A stretch of DNA of 64,000 nucleotides. Source: Salinivibrio siamensis. GTDB taxonomy: Bacteria > Pseudomonadota > Gammaproteobacteria > Enterobacterales > Vibrionaceae. The position numbers and the translations under genes were made by a program. The notes beneath the pieces were generated by a model that did no database searches, was not told the DNA's origin, and was given only the letters and a program-made list of their open reading frames with translations. Shown here one piece after another: positions 7,571-15,001 of this stretch (its first letter is position 1; every line of letters begins with the position of its first letter). The stretch spans positions 86,001 to 150,000 of the forward strand of contig NZ_MUFB01000002.1 in assembly GCF_001996005.1 (NCBI RefSeq), written 5' to 3'.

Positions 7571-8572
7571 ATGGCGAATAAGAAAAAGCGACCGACATTA
7601 CAAGACATTGCCGATCGAGTCGGCGTCACCAAAATGACAGTAAGCCGCTGTTTACGCGACCCGGCGATGGTCTCGAACGCCGCCCGTGAAAAAATCCAAT
7701 TGGCGGTAGAGGAGCTGGGTTACATTCCCAACCGCGCCCCCGATATTCTCTCCAATGCAAAATCCCATGCAATTGGCGTACTGGTGCCTTCCCTGACCAA
7801 CCAAGTTTTTGCCGAAGTGATCCGCGGGATTGAATCCGTCACTTCACCAGAGGGCTATCAAACCATGATTGCCCACTACAGCTACAGCGCCGCGCTTGAG
7901 GAGCAGAGCATTGAGTCTTTGCTCTCGTATAACGTCGATGCGATCATTTTGTCCGAAAATGTCCATACCGATAGAGCGCGTAAAATGCTGCAAACCGCCT
8001 CGATTCCGGTGATTGAAATCATGGACAGCGTGTCGCCACGCCTCGAGCAAGCGGTTGGTTTTGACAACACCAAAGCCTCGCGCGATATGACCAACGCCCT
8101 GATTGAAAAAGGGCGCCGATGTATTGCGTATTTTGCTGCCCGTATGGATGAGCGCACGCGGTTAAAGCTTGAGGGCTATCATCAAGCGATTGCTCAAACC
8201 CAGCAAACGCCGATCAGCCTGCAAACTGAAGACGCCTCGTCATTTACCTTAGGAGCCAAGTTACTCGGCCAGATCCTTGAATTACATCCCGAGGTGGATG
8301 GCATTGTTTGCACCAACGATGACTTGGCGATTGGCGCTTTATATGAGTGCCAACGACGCGGGATCAAGGTGCCGGAACACATGGCGATTGCCGGTTTTCA
8401 CGGCCACGACATCAGCCAAGCCATGCTCCCCAAACTGGCGACAGTGATCACCCCTCGAGAAGAAATCGGCCGCGTCGCCGCCACTGAGCTTATCGCCCGA
8501 CTCCGCGGCGCCGACACCTGGCCGAGCCACATCGATCTTGGCTACCGCATCGAACACGGGGAAAGTATTTGA
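7571..8572 (+). CDS. gntR: Gluconate utilisation repressor GntR (LacI family)
   Basis: A 333-residue LacI-family repressor. The N-terminal helix-turn-helix (LQDIADRVGVTKMTVSR) is followed by the hinge segment IPNRAPDILSNAKS, which is nearly the same as in GntR of E. coli, as are VPSLTNQVFAEVIRGIESV and the C-terminal CTNDDLAIGA and MAIAGFHGHD. In that family gluconate or its derivatives release the protein from DNA. It sits directly downstream of the gluconate operon with its own operator. The organism thus appears to use a TRAP transporter in place of the GntT-type permease. The next sequence is the AT-rich methyltransferase insert. Confidence 0.93.
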   Translation: MANKKKRPTLQDIADRVGVTKMTVSRCLRDPAMVSNAAREKIQLAVEELGYIPNRAPDILSNAKSHAIGVLVPSLTNQVFAEVIRGIESVTSPEGYQTMIAHYSYSAALEEQSIESLLSYNVDAIILSENVHTDRARKMLQTASIPVIEIMDSVSPRLEQAVGFDNTKASRDMTNALIEKGRRCIAYFAARMDERTRLKLEGYHQAIAQTQQTPISLQTEDASSFTLGAKLLGQILELHPEVDGIVCTNDDLAIGALYECQRRGIKVPEHMAIAGFHGHDISQAMLPKLATVITPREEIGRVAATELIARLRGADTWPSHIDLGYRIEHGESI

Positions 8573-8573
8573 G

Positions 8574-8672
8574 ATGAAGCGTGGCAGAAAAGGGAGTATA
8601 AAGCGGTTGTTTATATCGAGTGGCCTAGTATTATTCTCGGGCATTTTTACTTGTAGTAGTGTTACATCATGA
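8574..8672 (+). CDS. Possible 32-residue leader ORF before the methyltransferase
   Basis: An ATG one base after the gntR stop opens a 32-codon frame that ends in TGA overlapping the methyltransferase ATG (ATGA). The peptide begins with a run of basic residues (KRGRKGSIKR) followed by a hydrophobic stretch (LFISSGLVLFSGIF) and ends TCSSVTS. This resembles a short signal sequence or a single membrane span. The methyltransferase has no evident ribosome binding site of its own, so the small frame could couple or regulate its translation. It could equally be chance; no homologue is known to me. Confidence 0.3.
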   Translation: MKRGRKGSIKRLFISSGLVLFSGIFTCSSVTS

Positions 8673-10204
8673 GAGCCGATGAAATTCTTGTAATTGACCT
8701 GTTTGCTGGCCCTGGAGGGCTTGGCGAGGGGATCTCTTCTGTTACAGACGAAAATGGATATCGTCCTTTTAAAATCGGTCTCTCGGTGGAAAAAGAGTCG
8801 TCGGCTCATTTGACGCTAACAACGCGCGCACTATATCGGAAACTTAAAGAGAATAAACAGGGTTTACAGAGTTATCATGATTACCTATGTGGTCAAATAA
8901 CGCGCGAAGAGCTGTTTGATCAGTACCCTGAAGAAGCAGAAGCCGCTCGAACTGAGACACTATACAAACCAAGAGCACTGGGTGACGATAACGAGTTTAT
9001 TCACGAAAGAATTAAAAAGTTAGTCAATGCTCATGGTAATAGGCCCAAAATCGTTATTGGGGGGCCGCCTTGTCAAGCATACTCGTTGGTCGGGCGCTCA
9101 AGAAATGCGGGAATAAAAGACTATAACGCTGAGACTGATAAGAGAAACTTTTTGTACAAAGAGTACTTGAAAGTGCTATCAATAGCCCAGCCGGATGTAT
9201 TCGTCATGGAAAATGTTAGGGGGATCCTTTCTGCCAAGGTTAAAGATAAACCAATATTCCCCCAGATGCTTGAAGACTTACGTAACCCTGAGCAAGTGAC
9301 GGCCATACATGGAGCGAAATATAACGTTTACTCCCTAGTTAAGCCTGCTAATGATCCTGCCAACCCAGACTATGATAAGACGAGCGATTTTCTTATTAAG
9401 GCAGAGGACTATGGTGTGCCTCAGGCGAGACATCGAGTAATTTTACTGGGCGTGCGAGAAGACATTGATAAATATCCTGACACTTTGTTGCCTAGTAGTG
9501 AACACGTTACCGTTGAGCAGGCAATTTCTGACTTGCCAAAATTAAGAAGTGGGTTATCTAAGCAAAAAGATGACAACAAGGCTTGGGAGAGGATCGTTGA
9601 AAGGCATGCCAAAACAGCCAAGCGGCTCCTTAGTAAATCCTTCTCTAATGCAGAAGAGCTAGATTTAAAGCCGAGAAAAGGTTTATCACGAAGCAGTAAG
9701 GATATTGCTGGTGTGGATCCAAAGGTCCCAAGGCACCTAAGGGATTGGTATACAGATAATAAACCCAAATGTGTTCTAAATCATGAGACCCGCGCCCATA
9801 TGGAGAGTGACTTGTTGCGCTATGCATATAGCTCTGCATATACCTGTCTCAGTGGTGGCTCTTCACCAAAATCTAAGAGCTTTCCAGATCAGTTAGCCCC
9901 TGCTCATGGTAACTGGAAAACTGGCGCGCACGAAGATAGGTTCCGTACTCAAGCAGCTAATAAGTGCTCCACAACGGTAACGAGCCACATGTCAAAAGAT
10001 GGTCACTATTTTATTCACTATGATCCTAAACAATGCCGTAGCTTAACCGTGCGTGAAGCCGCGCGGTTACAGACTTTCCCAGATAACTACAAGTTTGAAG
10101 GGAATCGAACGCAGCAATATGTACAGGTAGGAAATGCTGTGCCACCATATTTGGCACAGCAAATCGGAAACGTTGTTTTGGATCTATTCAATCGAAACGA
10201 ATAA
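8669..10204 (+). CDS. DNA (cytosine-5-)-methyltransferase
   Basis: A 511-residue C5-cytosine methyltransferase that transfers a methyl group from S-adenosylmethionine to cytosine in a specific DNA sequence. Motif I is DLFAGPGGLGEG (residues 10-21), motif IV GGPPCQAYS with catalytic Cys135, motif VI ENV (181-183), motif VIII QARHRV (253-258), motif IX REAARLQTFPD and motif X VQVGNAVPP. About 110 residues separate motifs I and IV, longer than in compact family members. The ~200 residues between VIII and IX hold the target recognition domain; the target is unknown. No endonuclease gene lies beside it. It converges on and overlaps by 17 bp the receiver-protein gene. Confidence 0.93.
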   Translation: MRADEILVIDLFAGPGGLGEGISSVTDENGYRPFKIGLSVEKESSAHLTLTTRALYRKLKENKQGLQSYHDYLCGQITREELFDQYPEEAEAARTETLYKPRALGDDNEFIHERIKKLVNAHGNRPKIVIGGPPCQAYSLVGRSRNAGIKDYNAETDKRNFLYKEYLKVLSIAQPDVFVMENVRGILSAKVKDKPIFPQMLEDLRNPEQVTAIHGAKYNVYSLVKPANDPANPDYDKTSDFLIKAEDYGVPQARHRVILLGVREDIDKYPDTLLPSSEHVTVEQAISDLPKLRSGLSKQKDDNKAWERIVERHAKTAKRLLSKSFSNAEELDLKPRKGLSRSSKDIAGVDPKVPRHLRDWYTDNKPKCVLNHETRAHMESDLLRYAYSSAYTCLSGGSSPKSKSFPDQLAPAHGNWKTGAHEDRFRTQAANKCSTTVTSHMSKDGHYFIHYDPKQCRSLTVREAARLQTFPDNYKFEGNRTQQYVQVGNAVPPYLAQQIGNVVLDLFNRNE

Positions 10205-11558
10205 TACCCGGTCGCGCAGCATGCTGTGATGCCCTAAAGCTGATGTCTGATAAAATCTGGTCTTTCAGCTTAAATATAGGAGTTCCTAACCACTTGTTAA
10301 CGTCTGGCCTTGCTCCCAGTTGATACATGAAGCTTACTTTTACGATATACTCTTCATTTTTAATTATAACGTTAGGAAGTCTATATATACCTGCATGAGC
10401 AGTGTCGCGACCACTTTGATCTCCAAAAAAGGTAAACTTCTCATGCTCTTTTGGGATCATTGCTGACAAGAAGTAGCGATTTAACTTAGTTTTACGTTGT
10501 GCCTGATCACACTCCGCTGATAGTTCAATAAATCCTAGTTGAGTTGCTTCGCGAACAACACTTCTTTCTTTTTTCGTCCCCTTTCTACAATTTAGAAACT
10601 CTTCATTCATAACTGTCTTAATATTCCTTCCTAGATTACTTTCAACCTTAAGTTCATTTTCATCTAGGTAAGTTTTATTAAACTCAATCCAAGTGCCACG
10701 CTTATTCTTTAAAGAGCCATTTGATAGCTCATCAATGTGATAGAACGTGTTTAGATAAGCCTTTATATCTTGGTAGGATTCATTATCTGGCTTCTGACCA
10801 ATTCCTTTAGATGCATTGACCCAACTAGAGTGCTCAGCTTTATTGTGATTAGAACGTATATGGTTATGAAGCACTGGCTCCAAACCCAACTCGATTGCTA
10901 CGTCTGGCTCTTCTCTAGCATTTTTAAACCCTAGAGTTTCATTGCCGATTATACCTAGCATGGTTTTGAGGTTTTCTGTTGTCTGATGTTGAAATTTTTC
11001 TATATTATTTTCTCGAGAGCGAGCAAGTCTAAATAATGAGTCAGTGGTCAATTGTGCCGCAGATGAGACCCTGTTTTCCCATCCAAACAAGGACTCAAAT
11101 ATAGGATTGCTTGATAAAATACCTACTACCTCATCTTTGAGGTTTGATCTGGGAGTATTAAATTGTGCTTTATCCAATACTCCCCAGTGAATGGGGTATG
11201 GAATATCAGCATATCTCTCCTCAATGAGGTCCATAACCTCCTTAACCGTTCCTGTGTTTTTAGACCAGAAGAAAAGTAAATAAGGGCCATCAATAGTGAT
11301 CTTTCTCAAGATATCAGCTATTGGTCCTACTAAACTTTTGGCGTTAACTTGTAGTTCTTGGAGGTTAAGATCAGTAATTATTACCCGGGGGTGAACCTTA
11401 TCAAAATTAATATGGTCAACGCCAGACAAATTACTTGGTTCATCTTTTTTGTAGTGAATAGGAAAGCAAGGATATCCCGCTCTTACAAGGCTATCTTGAA
11501 TAGAGTCCAAGTCCTCTTTTTTATCATCTATAAGGACAATGCTGGGAAATATTATCAT
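10188..11558 (-). CDS. Receiver-domain protein with uncharacterised C-terminal region
   Basis: A 456-residue protein. Residues 1-135 have the pattern of a response-regulator receiver: acidic pair D11-D12 (VLIDDKKED), phospho-acceptor D63 (IITDLNL), a serine at 99 (FFWSKN) and conserved K130 (GVLDKAQF). The remaining ~320 residues show no helix-turn-helix or other domain I recognise; notable is IELSAECDQAQRK near residues 344-356 and an ARPGIIRFD C-terminus. The ATG at 11558 overlaps the stop of the upstream ATPase gene (ATGA), with AGGAG just before it, so the two are translationally coupled. The receiver would be the natural phosphorylation partner of that protein's kinase-like module (inference). 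Confidence 0.8.
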   Translation of the reverse strand: MIIFPSIVLIDDKKEDLDSIQDSLVRAGYPCFPIHYKKDEPSNLSGVDHINFDKVHPRVIITDLNLQELQVNAKSLVGPIADILRKITIDGPYLLFFWSKNTGTVKEVMDLIEERYADIPYPIHWGVLDKAQFNTPRSNLKDEVVGILSSNPIFESLFGWENRVSSAAQLTTDSLFRLARSRENNIEKFQHQTTENLKTMLGIIGNETLGFKNAREEPDVAIELGLEPVLHNHIRSNHNKAEHSSWVNASKGIGQKPDNESYQDIKAYLNTFYHIDELSNGSLKNKRGTWIEFNKTYLDENELKVESNLGRNIKTVMNEEFLNCRKGTKKERSVVREATQLGFIELSAECDQAQRKTKLNRYFLSAMIPKEHEKFTFFGDQSGRDTAHAGIYRLPNVIIKNEEYIVKVSFMYQLGARPDVNKWLGTPIFKLKDQILSDISFRASQHAARPGIIRFD

Positions 11559-13711
11559 TTTTTCTCCTGACAAAATACAATTACAACGGCAGCTCCCTGA
11601 TATACGTCAGGAAGATCCAAATCTTTTGGATGACATATTTGGAGTCTGCCTCCGATTGACTCCATTACTTTGTCTGAATAGTAAAGGCCAACTCCCATCC
11701 CTCCGGGCCGAGAAGTTTTAAAAGGTTGAATTGCTTCTTCTGGTGTCAAGCTAAACCCCGGGCCATTATCCATAATTACAAGTGCTGGACCTTCTTTAAA
11801 CCAATCAATTAAACTATCTATACGGATGGCTGGTTTATAATTATTTCCTTCTTTCTCTGCCTTGAGGCCTGTCCAGTGGATTGAATTGTCAATGAGGTTC
11901 GTGAGTGTTGCCTGGAGTAGACCGAATGGTGCTGTAACTTTAAAAGACTCTGATTCATCACTGTTTATTGGACATGAGAAAACAATCTTATGATGCTCAA
12001 AACGATGCTCGTTTAATTTTACGATTTTTTGAGTGAGAGCTTTTATGTCAAATGTTTTCTGCTCATTACGGCGAAGCAATGGAGCAAAGCCTTCGAGTAG
12101 TTCAGAAAGATGTTCTGCTCTTTTGAGAAGAGTTTCGTAATCATCAGATTGGCGAATAGAGGTGTTTAGGTCGTCCACTCCTCTTTCGACCTCATGGAAT
12201 ATTACTGCTAAGTTAATTCCCGCTATGCCAGAGCTTAAGGTGACTTCGCGCATTTGAAGGTAGTCTGATTCTATTTGCGCAACCTTGCCACCCATTTCTT
12301 CTTCAAGATTATGTTTCTTTATTGATTTCTTGATGTCTTCGATACTTTGAGAAAAACGAGTTGTTGCCGGTGAGGCATCTTTTACATCACCTTTAATATA
12401 ATTATCGACACTCTCTCTGTCTTTTCGATGCTTTAAATGAAAGTCCTCAATGATGCTGGCTACGATCCATCGATAACGCTTATATGTGTCATTCTCATCG
12501 AAGCCTTCTCGGTTAGTTTTCTCTTTGAGGCCTTCACTATCTTCAAGGTTTAAGTCAATCCCTCCTATCACCATGCCTGTATCAATCTTCTGACCAGGCA
12601 TGTTGATTCGTCCTGCGTTTAAACCTAACCAATCGTCATTAGTTTCTCCGTAATTAAAAACCCGTATACCATCCCTGTATACACGAATACCTGATTGCTC
12701 TCTTAAATATTCTTTTATAAGCTGAGGAGAGCCAACTGCACTAAGTACTGCAGACGATTTCATAAAAATATAAAGTGTTCCAGATATCGGACCTATTTCT
12801 TTGAGGTCTTCTGGTTTCAATAATAAGGATTCACGTACGTTTTTATTTCGAGCCAGCTCTTCTTCTTTGCTCGGTTGTAGAAGCTCAAGGGTATCATCCT
12901 TTGTCTCTATGTGCGATGAAGCTAGCTCTTTAAAAGTTTGAGGTGGATTAAATGTGTAGGTAGAAGAAAACTTACCATTTTCGTCAATAATGAAATCATA
13001 TGTCCATAGAGCTTTTTCAACAATGTCTTGGGCTTCAAGTAAGTCAGCTATATCCTTCTCTCTCCCCGGAACATTTAAACTGACGGTAAAATCAGATACA
13101 GTTTTGAATGGAGATATAAGACTGGTTAGTAGTCTTTTTAGGCGCCTCAAGTCTCCCCTGGTCCAGTTTGTATTGTTTAAAGAACCAATCTCTATTCTAG
13201 TTCCTGTCTCGTTAGGAAAGAATTCTGGTTCATCAAGAGGAATAATCGAGACACGCGTGTCTTCAATGTACTCTGCTTCTTTGATTAAAATGGGCCAATT
13301 AATCGATATCTTATACTCAGGAGAGTTTTCAGCTTTAGTGTTGATAGTAAGTTGGTTACCTAGTTTGTGAACCGCAAGACGTCCTACGCCTTTTTCTCCT
13401 AAAGGTAGCCGGTTTAGTTTTTTTGTTCGTATCTTATTCTGACTTCTTTTGCTATTGGTCCCTACTTCCATCCACTTATTAAGGATGTCATTTTTAGTCA
13501 TTCCAAAACCATTGTGGTCCCAAATAATAATATGTGGATTTTCGTCCTCTAAGTTAAGTGTAACGTCTACTTTTGTAGCATTAGCATCGTATGCATTCTT
13601 CACGAGCTCAAAGACGGCTAAGCGGTCATCCCCGATTAGCTCATCACCTAGTAGCTTAAGCAAATGAGCGTTTGCTCTAAACGGCTGAGTTATTGCCTTG
13701 CTATCTTCCAT
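11555..13711 (-). CDS. Dual GHKL ATPase: Hsp90/MORC-like plus histidine-kinase-like modules
   Basis: A 718-residue protein with two ATP-binding modules of the GHKL superfamily. The first, at the N-terminus, has ELVKNAYDANA (35-45), DHNGFGM (65-71) and GEKGVGRLAVHKLG (105-118), as in Hsp90, MutL and MORC proteins. A segment GIRVYRDGIRVFNYGE (about 341-356) is typical of GHKL ATPases found beside DNA methylases. The C-terminal part resembles a histidine kinase: an H-box-like IFHEVERG with His506, N-box LTNLIDNSIHW (604-614), MDNGPGF (647-653) and GGMGVGLYYSD (670-680). No membrane segment or sensor domain is seen. The ATG at 13711 follows AGAGG; it is the first gene of a two-gene operon with the receiver protein. 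Confidence 0.85.
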   Translation of the reverse strand: MEDSKAITQPFRANAHLLKLLGDELIGDDRLAVFELVKNAYDANATKVDVTLNLEDENPHIIIWDHNGFGMTKNDILNKWMEVGTNSKRSQNKIRTKKLNRLPLGEKGVGRLAVHKLGNQLTINTKAENSPEYKISINWPILIKEAEYIEDTRVSIIPLDEPEFFPNETGTRIEIGSLNNTNWTRGDLRRLKRLLTSLISPFKTVSDFTVSLNVPGREKDIADLLEAQDIVEKALWTYDFIIDENGKFSSTYTFNPPQTFKELASSHIETKDDTLELLQPSKEEELARNKNVRESLLLKPEDLKEIGPISGTLYIFMKSSAVLSAVGSPQLIKEYLREQSGIRVYRDGIRVFNYGETNDDWLGLNAGRINMPGQKIDTGMVIGGIDLNLEDSEGLKEKTNREGFDENDTYKRYRWIVASIIEDFHLKHRKDRESVDNYIKGDVKDASPATTRFSQSIEDIKKSIKKHNLEEEMGGKVAQIESDYLQMREVTLSSGIAGINLAVIFHEVERGVDDLNTSIRQSDDYETLLKRAEHLSELLEGFAPLLRRNEQKTFDIKALTQKIVKLNEHRFEHHKIVFSCPINSDESESFKVTAPFGLLQATLTNLIDNSIHWTGLKAEKEGNNYKPAIRIDSLIDWFKEGPALVIMDNGPGFSLTPEEAIQPFKTSRPGGMGVGLYYSDKVMESIGGRLQICHPKDLDLPDVYQGAAVVIVFCQEKK

Positions 13712-14019
13712 TTTTCCTCTCAAAGCGTTATTGGTCTGTTAATGTCTATAGTCTTTAGCTACACGGGTACTAGTTAAAAGAATCTTGTGAGATTATTCTA
13801 GAGTCCTTGAGAAAATATGCGTAGAAAGCTTTAACATAACTGACCAATTTTTGTGGCTACTTAAAGCTAATGATATAGATTTTTAGTTTATAACATCCAG
13901 TAATCTATCACACTAGTGACAGAGACAAATGTGGCTCCACTCAAAATTATCAATAGTGTTTAGATACAAAAAAGCCCCGCTATATGGGGGCTACAACTAG
14001 AAGACTGATAAAGGATAGG
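13712..14019. other. Intergenic stretch at the right edge of the methyltransferase insert
   Basis: A 308-bp AT-rich stretch without a convincing gene. It should hold the leftward promoter of the ATPase-receiver operon, but no clear -35/-10 pair was found. The small hairpin AATCT-TGTG-AGATT lies near 13782. Its right end holds the yicC terminator. No direct repeat matching the left edge of the insert was noticed. Confidence 0.5.
13967..13993 (-). terminator. Terminator of yicC
   Basis: Read on the minus strand, AGCCCC and GGGGCT form a stem around CATATAGC and are followed by a run of T. It lies 27 bp past the yicC stop and separates yicC from the insert. Confidence 0.75.
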
Positions 14020-14883
14020 CTACTCAATATTCTGGATCTGCTCGCGCATTTGCTCGATAAGCACTTTGAGCTCGACGCCGGAGGCGGTGATTTCGGTGCT
14101 GATTGATTTGGAGGCGAGGGTGTTGGCTTCGCGGTTGAACTCTTGCATCATAAAGTCCAAGCGTCGGCCGCAGGCGCCGCCTTTTTTGAGGATTTTATGT
14201 GCTTCTGAAACGTGTGAGTCCAAGCGGTCAAGCTCTTCTGCGACGTCGACTTTTTGCGCCAGCATCACCATTTCTTGTTCAACGCGGGCTGGGTCGAGTT
14301 CCACTTGTGCTTCTTCTAAGCGCGTGGTTAAACGTTCACGCTGCCACTCAATCACCGTGGGCATCTTTTCACGCACTTTGATCACTTCGGCGCTAATGGC
14401 ATCGAGTCGTTGCTCAATCAGGGCTTTCATGTTCTCACCTTCGCTGGCACGTGCGGCGATAAAGGCATCGAGTGCTTCATCAAGACCAGCTAATAAGGCG
14501 CGGTGTAGCTCGTCGGTGTCTTGCTCCGGCGCTTCCATCACCCCTGGCCAGTTCAGGACCTGAAACGGATTGATGTTGCCTTCACCCGCGGTCTCTTTCA
14601 CCCATTTGGCGGCGTGAATCACTTGCTTGGCCAAGGCTTCATTGATGGTGAGCTTATCTTGGCTGGCTTGTGAGGTATCAAAGCGCAGGTTGCATTCCAC
14701 TTTGCCGCGGGCTAGGCGCTTGCGAAAACGCTCGCGTACCACAGGCTCAAGGCTACGTAGCTGCTCAGGCATGCGAATGTAGGTTTCGAGATAGCGCTGG
14801 TTAACGGAGCGGATTTCCCAAACCGCGTTGCCCCAATCGCCCTTGAGTTCTTGACGGGCGTAGGCGGTCATACTGTGGATCAT
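14020..14883 (-). CDS. yicC: YicC family endoribonuclease/RNA-binding protein
   Basis: A 287-residue cytosolic protein matching YicC of E. coli nearly end to end: [11 protein letters not shown] at the start, [28 protein letters not shown], and the highly conserved C-terminus [37 protein letters not shown]. YicC proteins act in RNA turnover (for E. coli YicC, destabilisation of a small RNA). The start at 14883 was chosen because it gives the family N-terminus; 12 extra in-frame codons upstream are not conserved. It is divergent from rph. Confidence 0.93.
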
Positions 14884-15001
14884 GTGTACCTGCTCTTGTG
14901 TGCTGAAGGTGAATGGCAAAGATTATACGCATCCACGCCCCTGTCGTCAGCTGTCTTGGTCTGTCGGGCGGACAGGGATCGCAAGCGGGCGGAGAAACAC
15001 G

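Follow-up and report, generated by a model that had tools for sequence, protein, structure and literature searches.

Gene content and limits of the block

The stretch of DNA analysed here (the window; 64,000 nucleotides of contig NZ_MUFB01000002.1 of Salinivibrio siamensis) carries a block of three large genes (8669-13711) between the core genes gntR (7571..8572, plus strand) and yicC (14020..14919, minus strand). They encode a C5-cytosine DNA methyltransferase similar to DrmMII (MT, 511 amino acids; 8669..10204, plus strand), a MORC-type GHKL ATPase fused to a histidine kinase core (HK, 718 amino acids; 11555..13711, minus strand, ATG at 13711), and a receiver protein with a long C-terminal output region (RR, 456 amino acids; 10188..11558, minus strand, ATG at 11558). 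All three reading frames are intact, and the block contains no other gene, no integrase and no transposase; profile scans found no nuclease domain in MT, HK or RR. The G+C content lies between 0.38 and 0.45 inside the block versus 0.50-0.57 in its flanks. The original prediction, made from the sequence alone, had described the block in these terms (three large genes between gntR and yicC, AT-richer than their surroundings and devoid of restriction enzyme, integrase and transposase) and had assigned a methylase, a dual ATPase and a receiver to them, all of which holds.

The stop codon of HK and the start codon of RR overlap in the motif ATGA (11555..11558, minus strand), which makes translational coupling of the two genes probable. 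MT runs towards RR, and the 3' ends of these two genes share 17 bp (10188..10204), an arrangement also kept, with overlaps of 17-30 bp, in the related loci L016-L019, L045 and L057. The limits of the insertion are sharp: alignments of two genomes of the same genus (G002 and G003) to the window stop at 8573, just after gntR, so that the island begins at about 8574, and same-genus alignments resume at 14021/14022, where the stop codon of yicC lies, the island adjoining the 3' end of that gene. No att repeats of note were found flanking the block.

MT belongs to the C5-cytosine methylases (PF00145, E 6.5e-47) and displays the motifs GGPPCQ, ENV, QxRxR and GNAV. Its best PADLOC model is the DISARM methylase DrmMII (E 1.7e-101). 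No second C5 methylase was detected in the genome from which the window comes, nor was Vsr found there.

A MORC-type ATPase fused to a histidine kinase core, and its receiver partner

Pfam detects two ATPase domains in HK, HATPase_c_3 at residues 36-152 (E 2e-18) and HATPase_c at residues 603-699 (E 8e-15). In the structural model, residues from about 12 to 440 match the ATPase cassette of MORC3 (5ix2; Z 19.6, 299 residues, 3.8 Å) and also resemble Hsp90/TRAP1 (Z about 18); we delimit there an N-terminal GHKL and S5 (transducer) module at residues 12-434 (12412..13678, minus strand). From about residue 498 to 718 the model matches the histidine kinase cores of HK853, DivL and ThkA (Z 17-19), corresponding to a DHp-CA core at residues 498-715 (11567..12220, minus strand). 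Sequence profiles agree with both structural assignments. Across 19 HK sequences, the N-terminal ATPase residues E35, N39, D65, G68, G70 and K107 are invariant, as are H506, E507, N605, D608, N609, D648, G650, G652, G671 and G673 in the kinase core. Residue 501 of the model pairs with residue 255 of HK853 in several of the HK853 alignments, and in this register the putative phospho-acceptor H506 (12194-12196) would fall on residue 260 of HK853, which we take to be its phospho-histidine.

RR gave no match in Pfam (hmmscan up to E 10). Its AlphaFold2 (AF2) model (pLDDT 83) contains a receiver domain at residues 3-155 (11094..11552, minus strand; best Z 10.4), found by VIA-align, with the usual residues D11/D12, D63, S99 and K130, the predicted phospho-acceptor D63 being encoded at 11370-11372. 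Positions D11, D63, K130, C350, D351, R449 and G451 are invariant in 18 RR sequences, and Q354 nearly so. HK thus possesses the GHKL-S5 module with intact motifs that is typical of MORC and paraMORC proteins, and the pair has the attributes of a two-component system, namely a DHp phospho-histidine, a receiver with its phospho-aspartate and lysine, and intact CA boxes.

The output region of RR (residues 240-456; 10191..10841, minus strand) includes the last four of these conserved positions, together with Q354. No recognised DNA-binding output domain was found in RR. The lists of VIA-align and Foldseek matches for the whole protein were filled by receivers and barely covered the C-terminal fold. 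A PemK/MazF-like protein ranked first in the Foldseek viral library (E 6e-3, TMt 0.65, 164 columns), a match that is not significant alone; its length suits RR residues from about 285 to 448, the matched region itself being unreported by the search. Profile comparison of the RR C-terminus with PemK/MazF (PF02452), using a profile of two PemK sequences only, gave no signal, and we take a PemK/MazF-like fold as a lead only. A PADLOC match of RR to PD-Lambda-5_A (E 1.5e-4, 79 residues) was set aside as weak and local.

Distribution on chromosomes, plasmids and phages

The family is rare in chromosomes: in a sample of 398 genomes of the phylum, RR occurred in three, one of which is the genome of the window itself, and blastn against E. 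coli genomes gave no match. The complete three-gene block is found in Aliagarivorans, in two Marinomonas species and in a gammaproteobacterial metagenome-assembled genome, with HK 80-85% and MT 69-70% identical to those of the window. More distant relatives of HK (35-38% identity) and RR (23-25%) lie side by side on seven plasmids of Agrobacterium, Rhizobium and Burkholderia glumae, five of which were typed as conjugative, and these pairs have other C5 methylases and Vsr nearby. On Rhizobium/Agrobacterium plasmids (L025 12872-19339, L027 12922-20121, L030 12923-20121) the pair adjoins genes for an EcoRII-N-like protein, a DEAD helicase, HNH, Vsr, Dcm and a type II restriction endonuclease. A relative of the pair in A. 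salinitolerans has a Z1 gene and a homologue of MzaB beside it.

A scan of IMG/VR yielded 21 loci, 15 of them with a nearly full-length HK. In a P2-like phage (L069), HK and RR lie between the portal gene (phrog_68) and the replication-nicking gpA gene (phrog_91); the region around the portal gene of P2 is treated as a defence hotspot (PMC9519451). In L070 the block is found between early genes and the integrase gene, and in L077 MT, HK and RR follow a tail protein gene. Many loci consist of MT, HK and RR only, among them the phage loci L070, L072-L075, L077 and L080.

A profile census of 27 loci with an intact HK found RR as the next gene in every case; 25 of the loci have a C5 methylase no more than 8 kb away, and 10 have Vsr. 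These numbers include near-duplicates (e.g., L070/L071 and L075/L083) and thus count loci, not independent events. The kinase-receiver pair is hence as dedicated as had been anticipated, and it co-occurs with C5 methylases in distant bacteria, as the prediction had proposed to check, and in mobile or defence contexts.

Two further kinds of gene set came to light. A parallel set in G044 (L064 6103-10659) comprises a C5 methylase, a GHKL-kinase (25% identical) and a different receiver protein of 362 amino acids with a weak Response_reg match. Elsewhere (L065 4035-7312, L086 7860-11260, L087 7983-11176, L089 7172-10449), HK-like GHKL proteins are followed by proteins of about 300 amino acids whose start looks receiver-like by eye, and these sets possibly form a further lineage of kinase-receiver pairs.

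Exchange of the methylase and of the RR output region

Among 14 loci (the window and 13 loci outside its gammaproteobacterial clade), pairwise identities of HK correlate with those of RR (r 0.90) and not with those of MT (r -0.02); locus pairs are non-independent, and these correlation coefficients (r) are descriptive. Judged from these identities, HK and RR vary together and the methylase partner is exchanged.

Exchange also affects RR itself. Within the gammaproteobacterial clade the protein is mosaic: as far as about residue 225 the sequences of L017 and L018 are near that of L016 (about 60-80%), and beyond about residue 250 they are close to those of L045/L070 (52-90% versus 19-60% to L016). 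A link between the type of RR output region and the type of MT was looked for and not seen, as the MTs of L016 and L070 are 88% alike and those of L018 and L019 87% alike, with differing RR types in both cases. The pattern would fit diversifying selection on the output domain.

A variable slot next to yicC

The interval between gntR and yicC, or the 3' side of yicC, appears to be a variable slot with many defence genes, and yicC is a described integration site of islands (PMC8978831 and others). In genomes of the same genus, only about 455 bp separate gntR and yicC in G002; G003 encodes there a protein of 1060 amino acids matching type IV methyl-directed restriction enzymes; and in G001 a tyrosine integrase adjoins yicC. 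A protein of 580 amino acids next to this integrase (L040 6056-7798) has no PADLOC match. Altogether, the contents of the slot in the genus (window 8574-14019, L040-L044, L046) range over the kinase-receiver block, an MZA-like system, a type IV enzyme, an integrase with unknown genes, unknown genes, and an empty site.

In the sister species G005, the same slot holds a methylase whose protein is 96% identical to MT, followed by genes for a MORC-like ATPase, Z1, DUF4420 and AIPR, which match MzaB, MzaC, MzaD and MzaE. The two species thus carry nearly the same methylase gene in the same position, each with its own partner module.

A position close to yicC recurs in the relatives from Aliagarivorans, Marinomonas and G041, with an integrase-like gene between yicC and HK in Aliagarivorans and G041 (by eye). 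The order in G041 is yicC, the integrase-like gene, HK-RR-MT, a UvrD-like helicase, DrmB and DrmA (L045 13566-18375; L059 359-3511). The kinase-receiver pair there adjoins DISARM genes, and the site has one methylase, which is DrmMII-like.

Relation to described systems

The original prediction knew of no named system with this set of genes, and on this point it has to be revised. Bellieny-Rabelo et al. (2021) reported HEF_HK proteins (HATPase_c_3, DHp and HATPase_c) next to a receiver-like protein and, in many cases, a C5 methylase; in 91.6% of 644 regions the genes of the kinase-like and the receiver-like protein were linked (PMC8011034). HK shows the same architecture, HATPase_c_3, a DHp with the conserved His-Glu, and HATPase_c, and the neighbouring receiver with its long C-terminus, the C5 methylases and the Vsr genes in the surroundings of the HEF_HK/Response_reg_2 pairs are likewise common to both groups. 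By profile comparison HK aligns full-length with HEF_HK proteins (probability 100%, 657 columns), although those used here have about 1000 amino acids versus about 720 in the window. HK did not match PF19191 (HEF_HK) in hmmscan up to E 10, which returned only HATPase_c_3 and HATPase_c, nor did the scanned relatives of HK, whereas a control HEF_HK protein (L060) did. RR had no match to PF19192 (Response_reg_2) up to E 10, none being found in genomes G000 or G041 either; hhalign against Response_reg_2 proteins aligned the receiver only (probability 53-69%), the C-termini reaching a probability of 15% over 30 columns, and a PDB profile search from Response_reg_2 proteins returned no matches. Architecture and context have thus already been described, and by these comparisons HK is a remote full-length homologue outside PF19191, with RR outside PF19192. 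To the published account (PMC8011034), the group of the window adds the hotspot context, the methylase exchange and the exchange of the output region. Our literature search, thin on subscription papers and preprints, found no published phage test of such a kinase-receiver pair.

The block shares with the MORC/paraMORC restriction-modification systems (Iyer et al., 2008; PMC2292703) an N-terminal GHKL-S5 ATPase with intact motifs beside a C5 methylase, and Vsr in its relatives; the tie to these systems that had been proposed is supported. Yet, those systems include helicases and endonucleases, neither an SFII helicase nor an endonuclease gene being present among the three genes of the block, which has instead a C-terminal histidine kinase core and a receiver partner. 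MZA-like systems, of which mzaABCDE is one (MORC/MzaB, Z1/MzaC, the DUF4420 nuclease/MzaD, AIPR/MzaE and a cytosine methylase) have in common with it a GHKL ATPase partner and, through G005, the same methylase, but Z1 helicase, DUF4420 and AIPR are absent from the block and the kinase-receiver pair stands in their place. The G005 module itself is close to a published type II system made of Z1, PD-(D/E)XK, a cytosine methylase, AIPR and MORC, whose similarity to mzaBCDE is low (PMC9523054).

The likeness to DISARM resides in MT, which scores best against DrmMII, and in the DrmB and DrmA genes adjoining HK-RR-MT in G041; the window contains neither DrmA nor DrmB. The GHKL half of BbrUII/HgiDII-type restriction enzymes (NF050001) matches the N-terminus of HK (E 4e-25), a match that is limited to residues 36-249 and falls well short of the family cut-off; in its C-terminal half HK is a kinase core. 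In VcSduA (PMC12137116), a Shedu protein tested in defence, a GHKL ATPase is likewise proposed to control a C-terminal output; unlike in the window, the ATPase and its nuclease output share one chain there, with no kinase core or receiver partner.

Proposed function and alternatives

We favour, with moderate confidence, the reading that the block is a mobile, probably anti-phage module akin to restriction-modification, with methylation as the mark of self and a His-Asp relay as the trigger of the RR output. MT would methylate the cell's own DNA. HK would be a soluble dimer whose MORC/Hsp90-type GHKL-S5 half acts as an ATP-driven clamp sensing foreign or unmarked DNA, or a change in DNA during infection. 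Closure of the clamp would be relayed to the DHp-CA half, leading to phosphorylation of H506 and transfer of the phosphate to D63 of RR, which would release the C-terminal output region as the effector. HK and RR would thus constitute a portable effector module, and the methylase an exchangeable part common to MZA-like systems and DISARM. A possible control of the response by phosphorylation, as originally suggested, fits the invariance of the phospho-acceptor residues.

A more specific version is tentative and rather unlikely to hold in full: the nuclease would have been replaced by the phosphorelay, such that a MORC-type clamp reading foreign or unmarked DNA phosphorylates the receiver and frees a toxin-like output, possibly of PemK/MazF fold, with immunity given by the exchangeable methylase.

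Several points weigh against this defence function, which, like the effector role of RR, we infer. No nuclease or toxin domain could be identified in RR with confidence. Two loci, L068 and L069, have HK and RR with no linked C5 methylase, and PF00145 had no match in the 38.9-kb record of L069; the self mark may thus not be obligatory, or may be unlinked.

Finally, the parts of a two-component system are all present, so that HK and RR could instead form a regulatory circuit that senses stress or the state of DNA and acts on the expression of the methylase or further genes. For HEF_HK-type pairs, a part in regulation connected with restriction-modification has been proposed (PMC8011034), and the conserved convergent overlap of RR and MT could permit antisense control. 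We nevertheless consider such a circuit unlikely, as RR has no recognised DNA-binding output domain, the pair associates with unrelated methylases, and the P2-like phage keeps it though its record holds no C5 methylase to control. Still less probable is that the pair is an accessory to a nuclease system (MZA-like, DISARM or type II restriction-modification) that is unlinked or was linked in the past, the block being a remnant or orphan: relatives do lie beside fuller systems, with DISARM genes in G041, a MzaB homologue and Z1 in A. salinitolerans and EcoRII-type genes in Rhizobium/Agrobacterium, but many loci, including those of phages, hold only MT, HK and RR, and all genes of the block are intact with conserved catalytic residues. 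Least probable is a mainly selfish stabiliser, in which loss of MT would let HK and RR harm the cell so that the island or plasmid is retained, since HK and RR occur with no linked methylase in L068 and L069, even if islands, plasmids and prophages carry such blocks and restriction-modification systems are known for such behaviour (discussed in PMC8011034).

If the anti-phage relay proposed here is correct, it would join two worlds of signalling, the DNA-clamp ATPases of the MORC/MutL class and the phosphorelays of two-component systems. That the methylase is exchanged, and that HK and RR naturally take the place of an MZA-like module at a single site, suggests that different effector arms can rely on one self mark, which makes the role of such kinase-receiver pairs directly testable.

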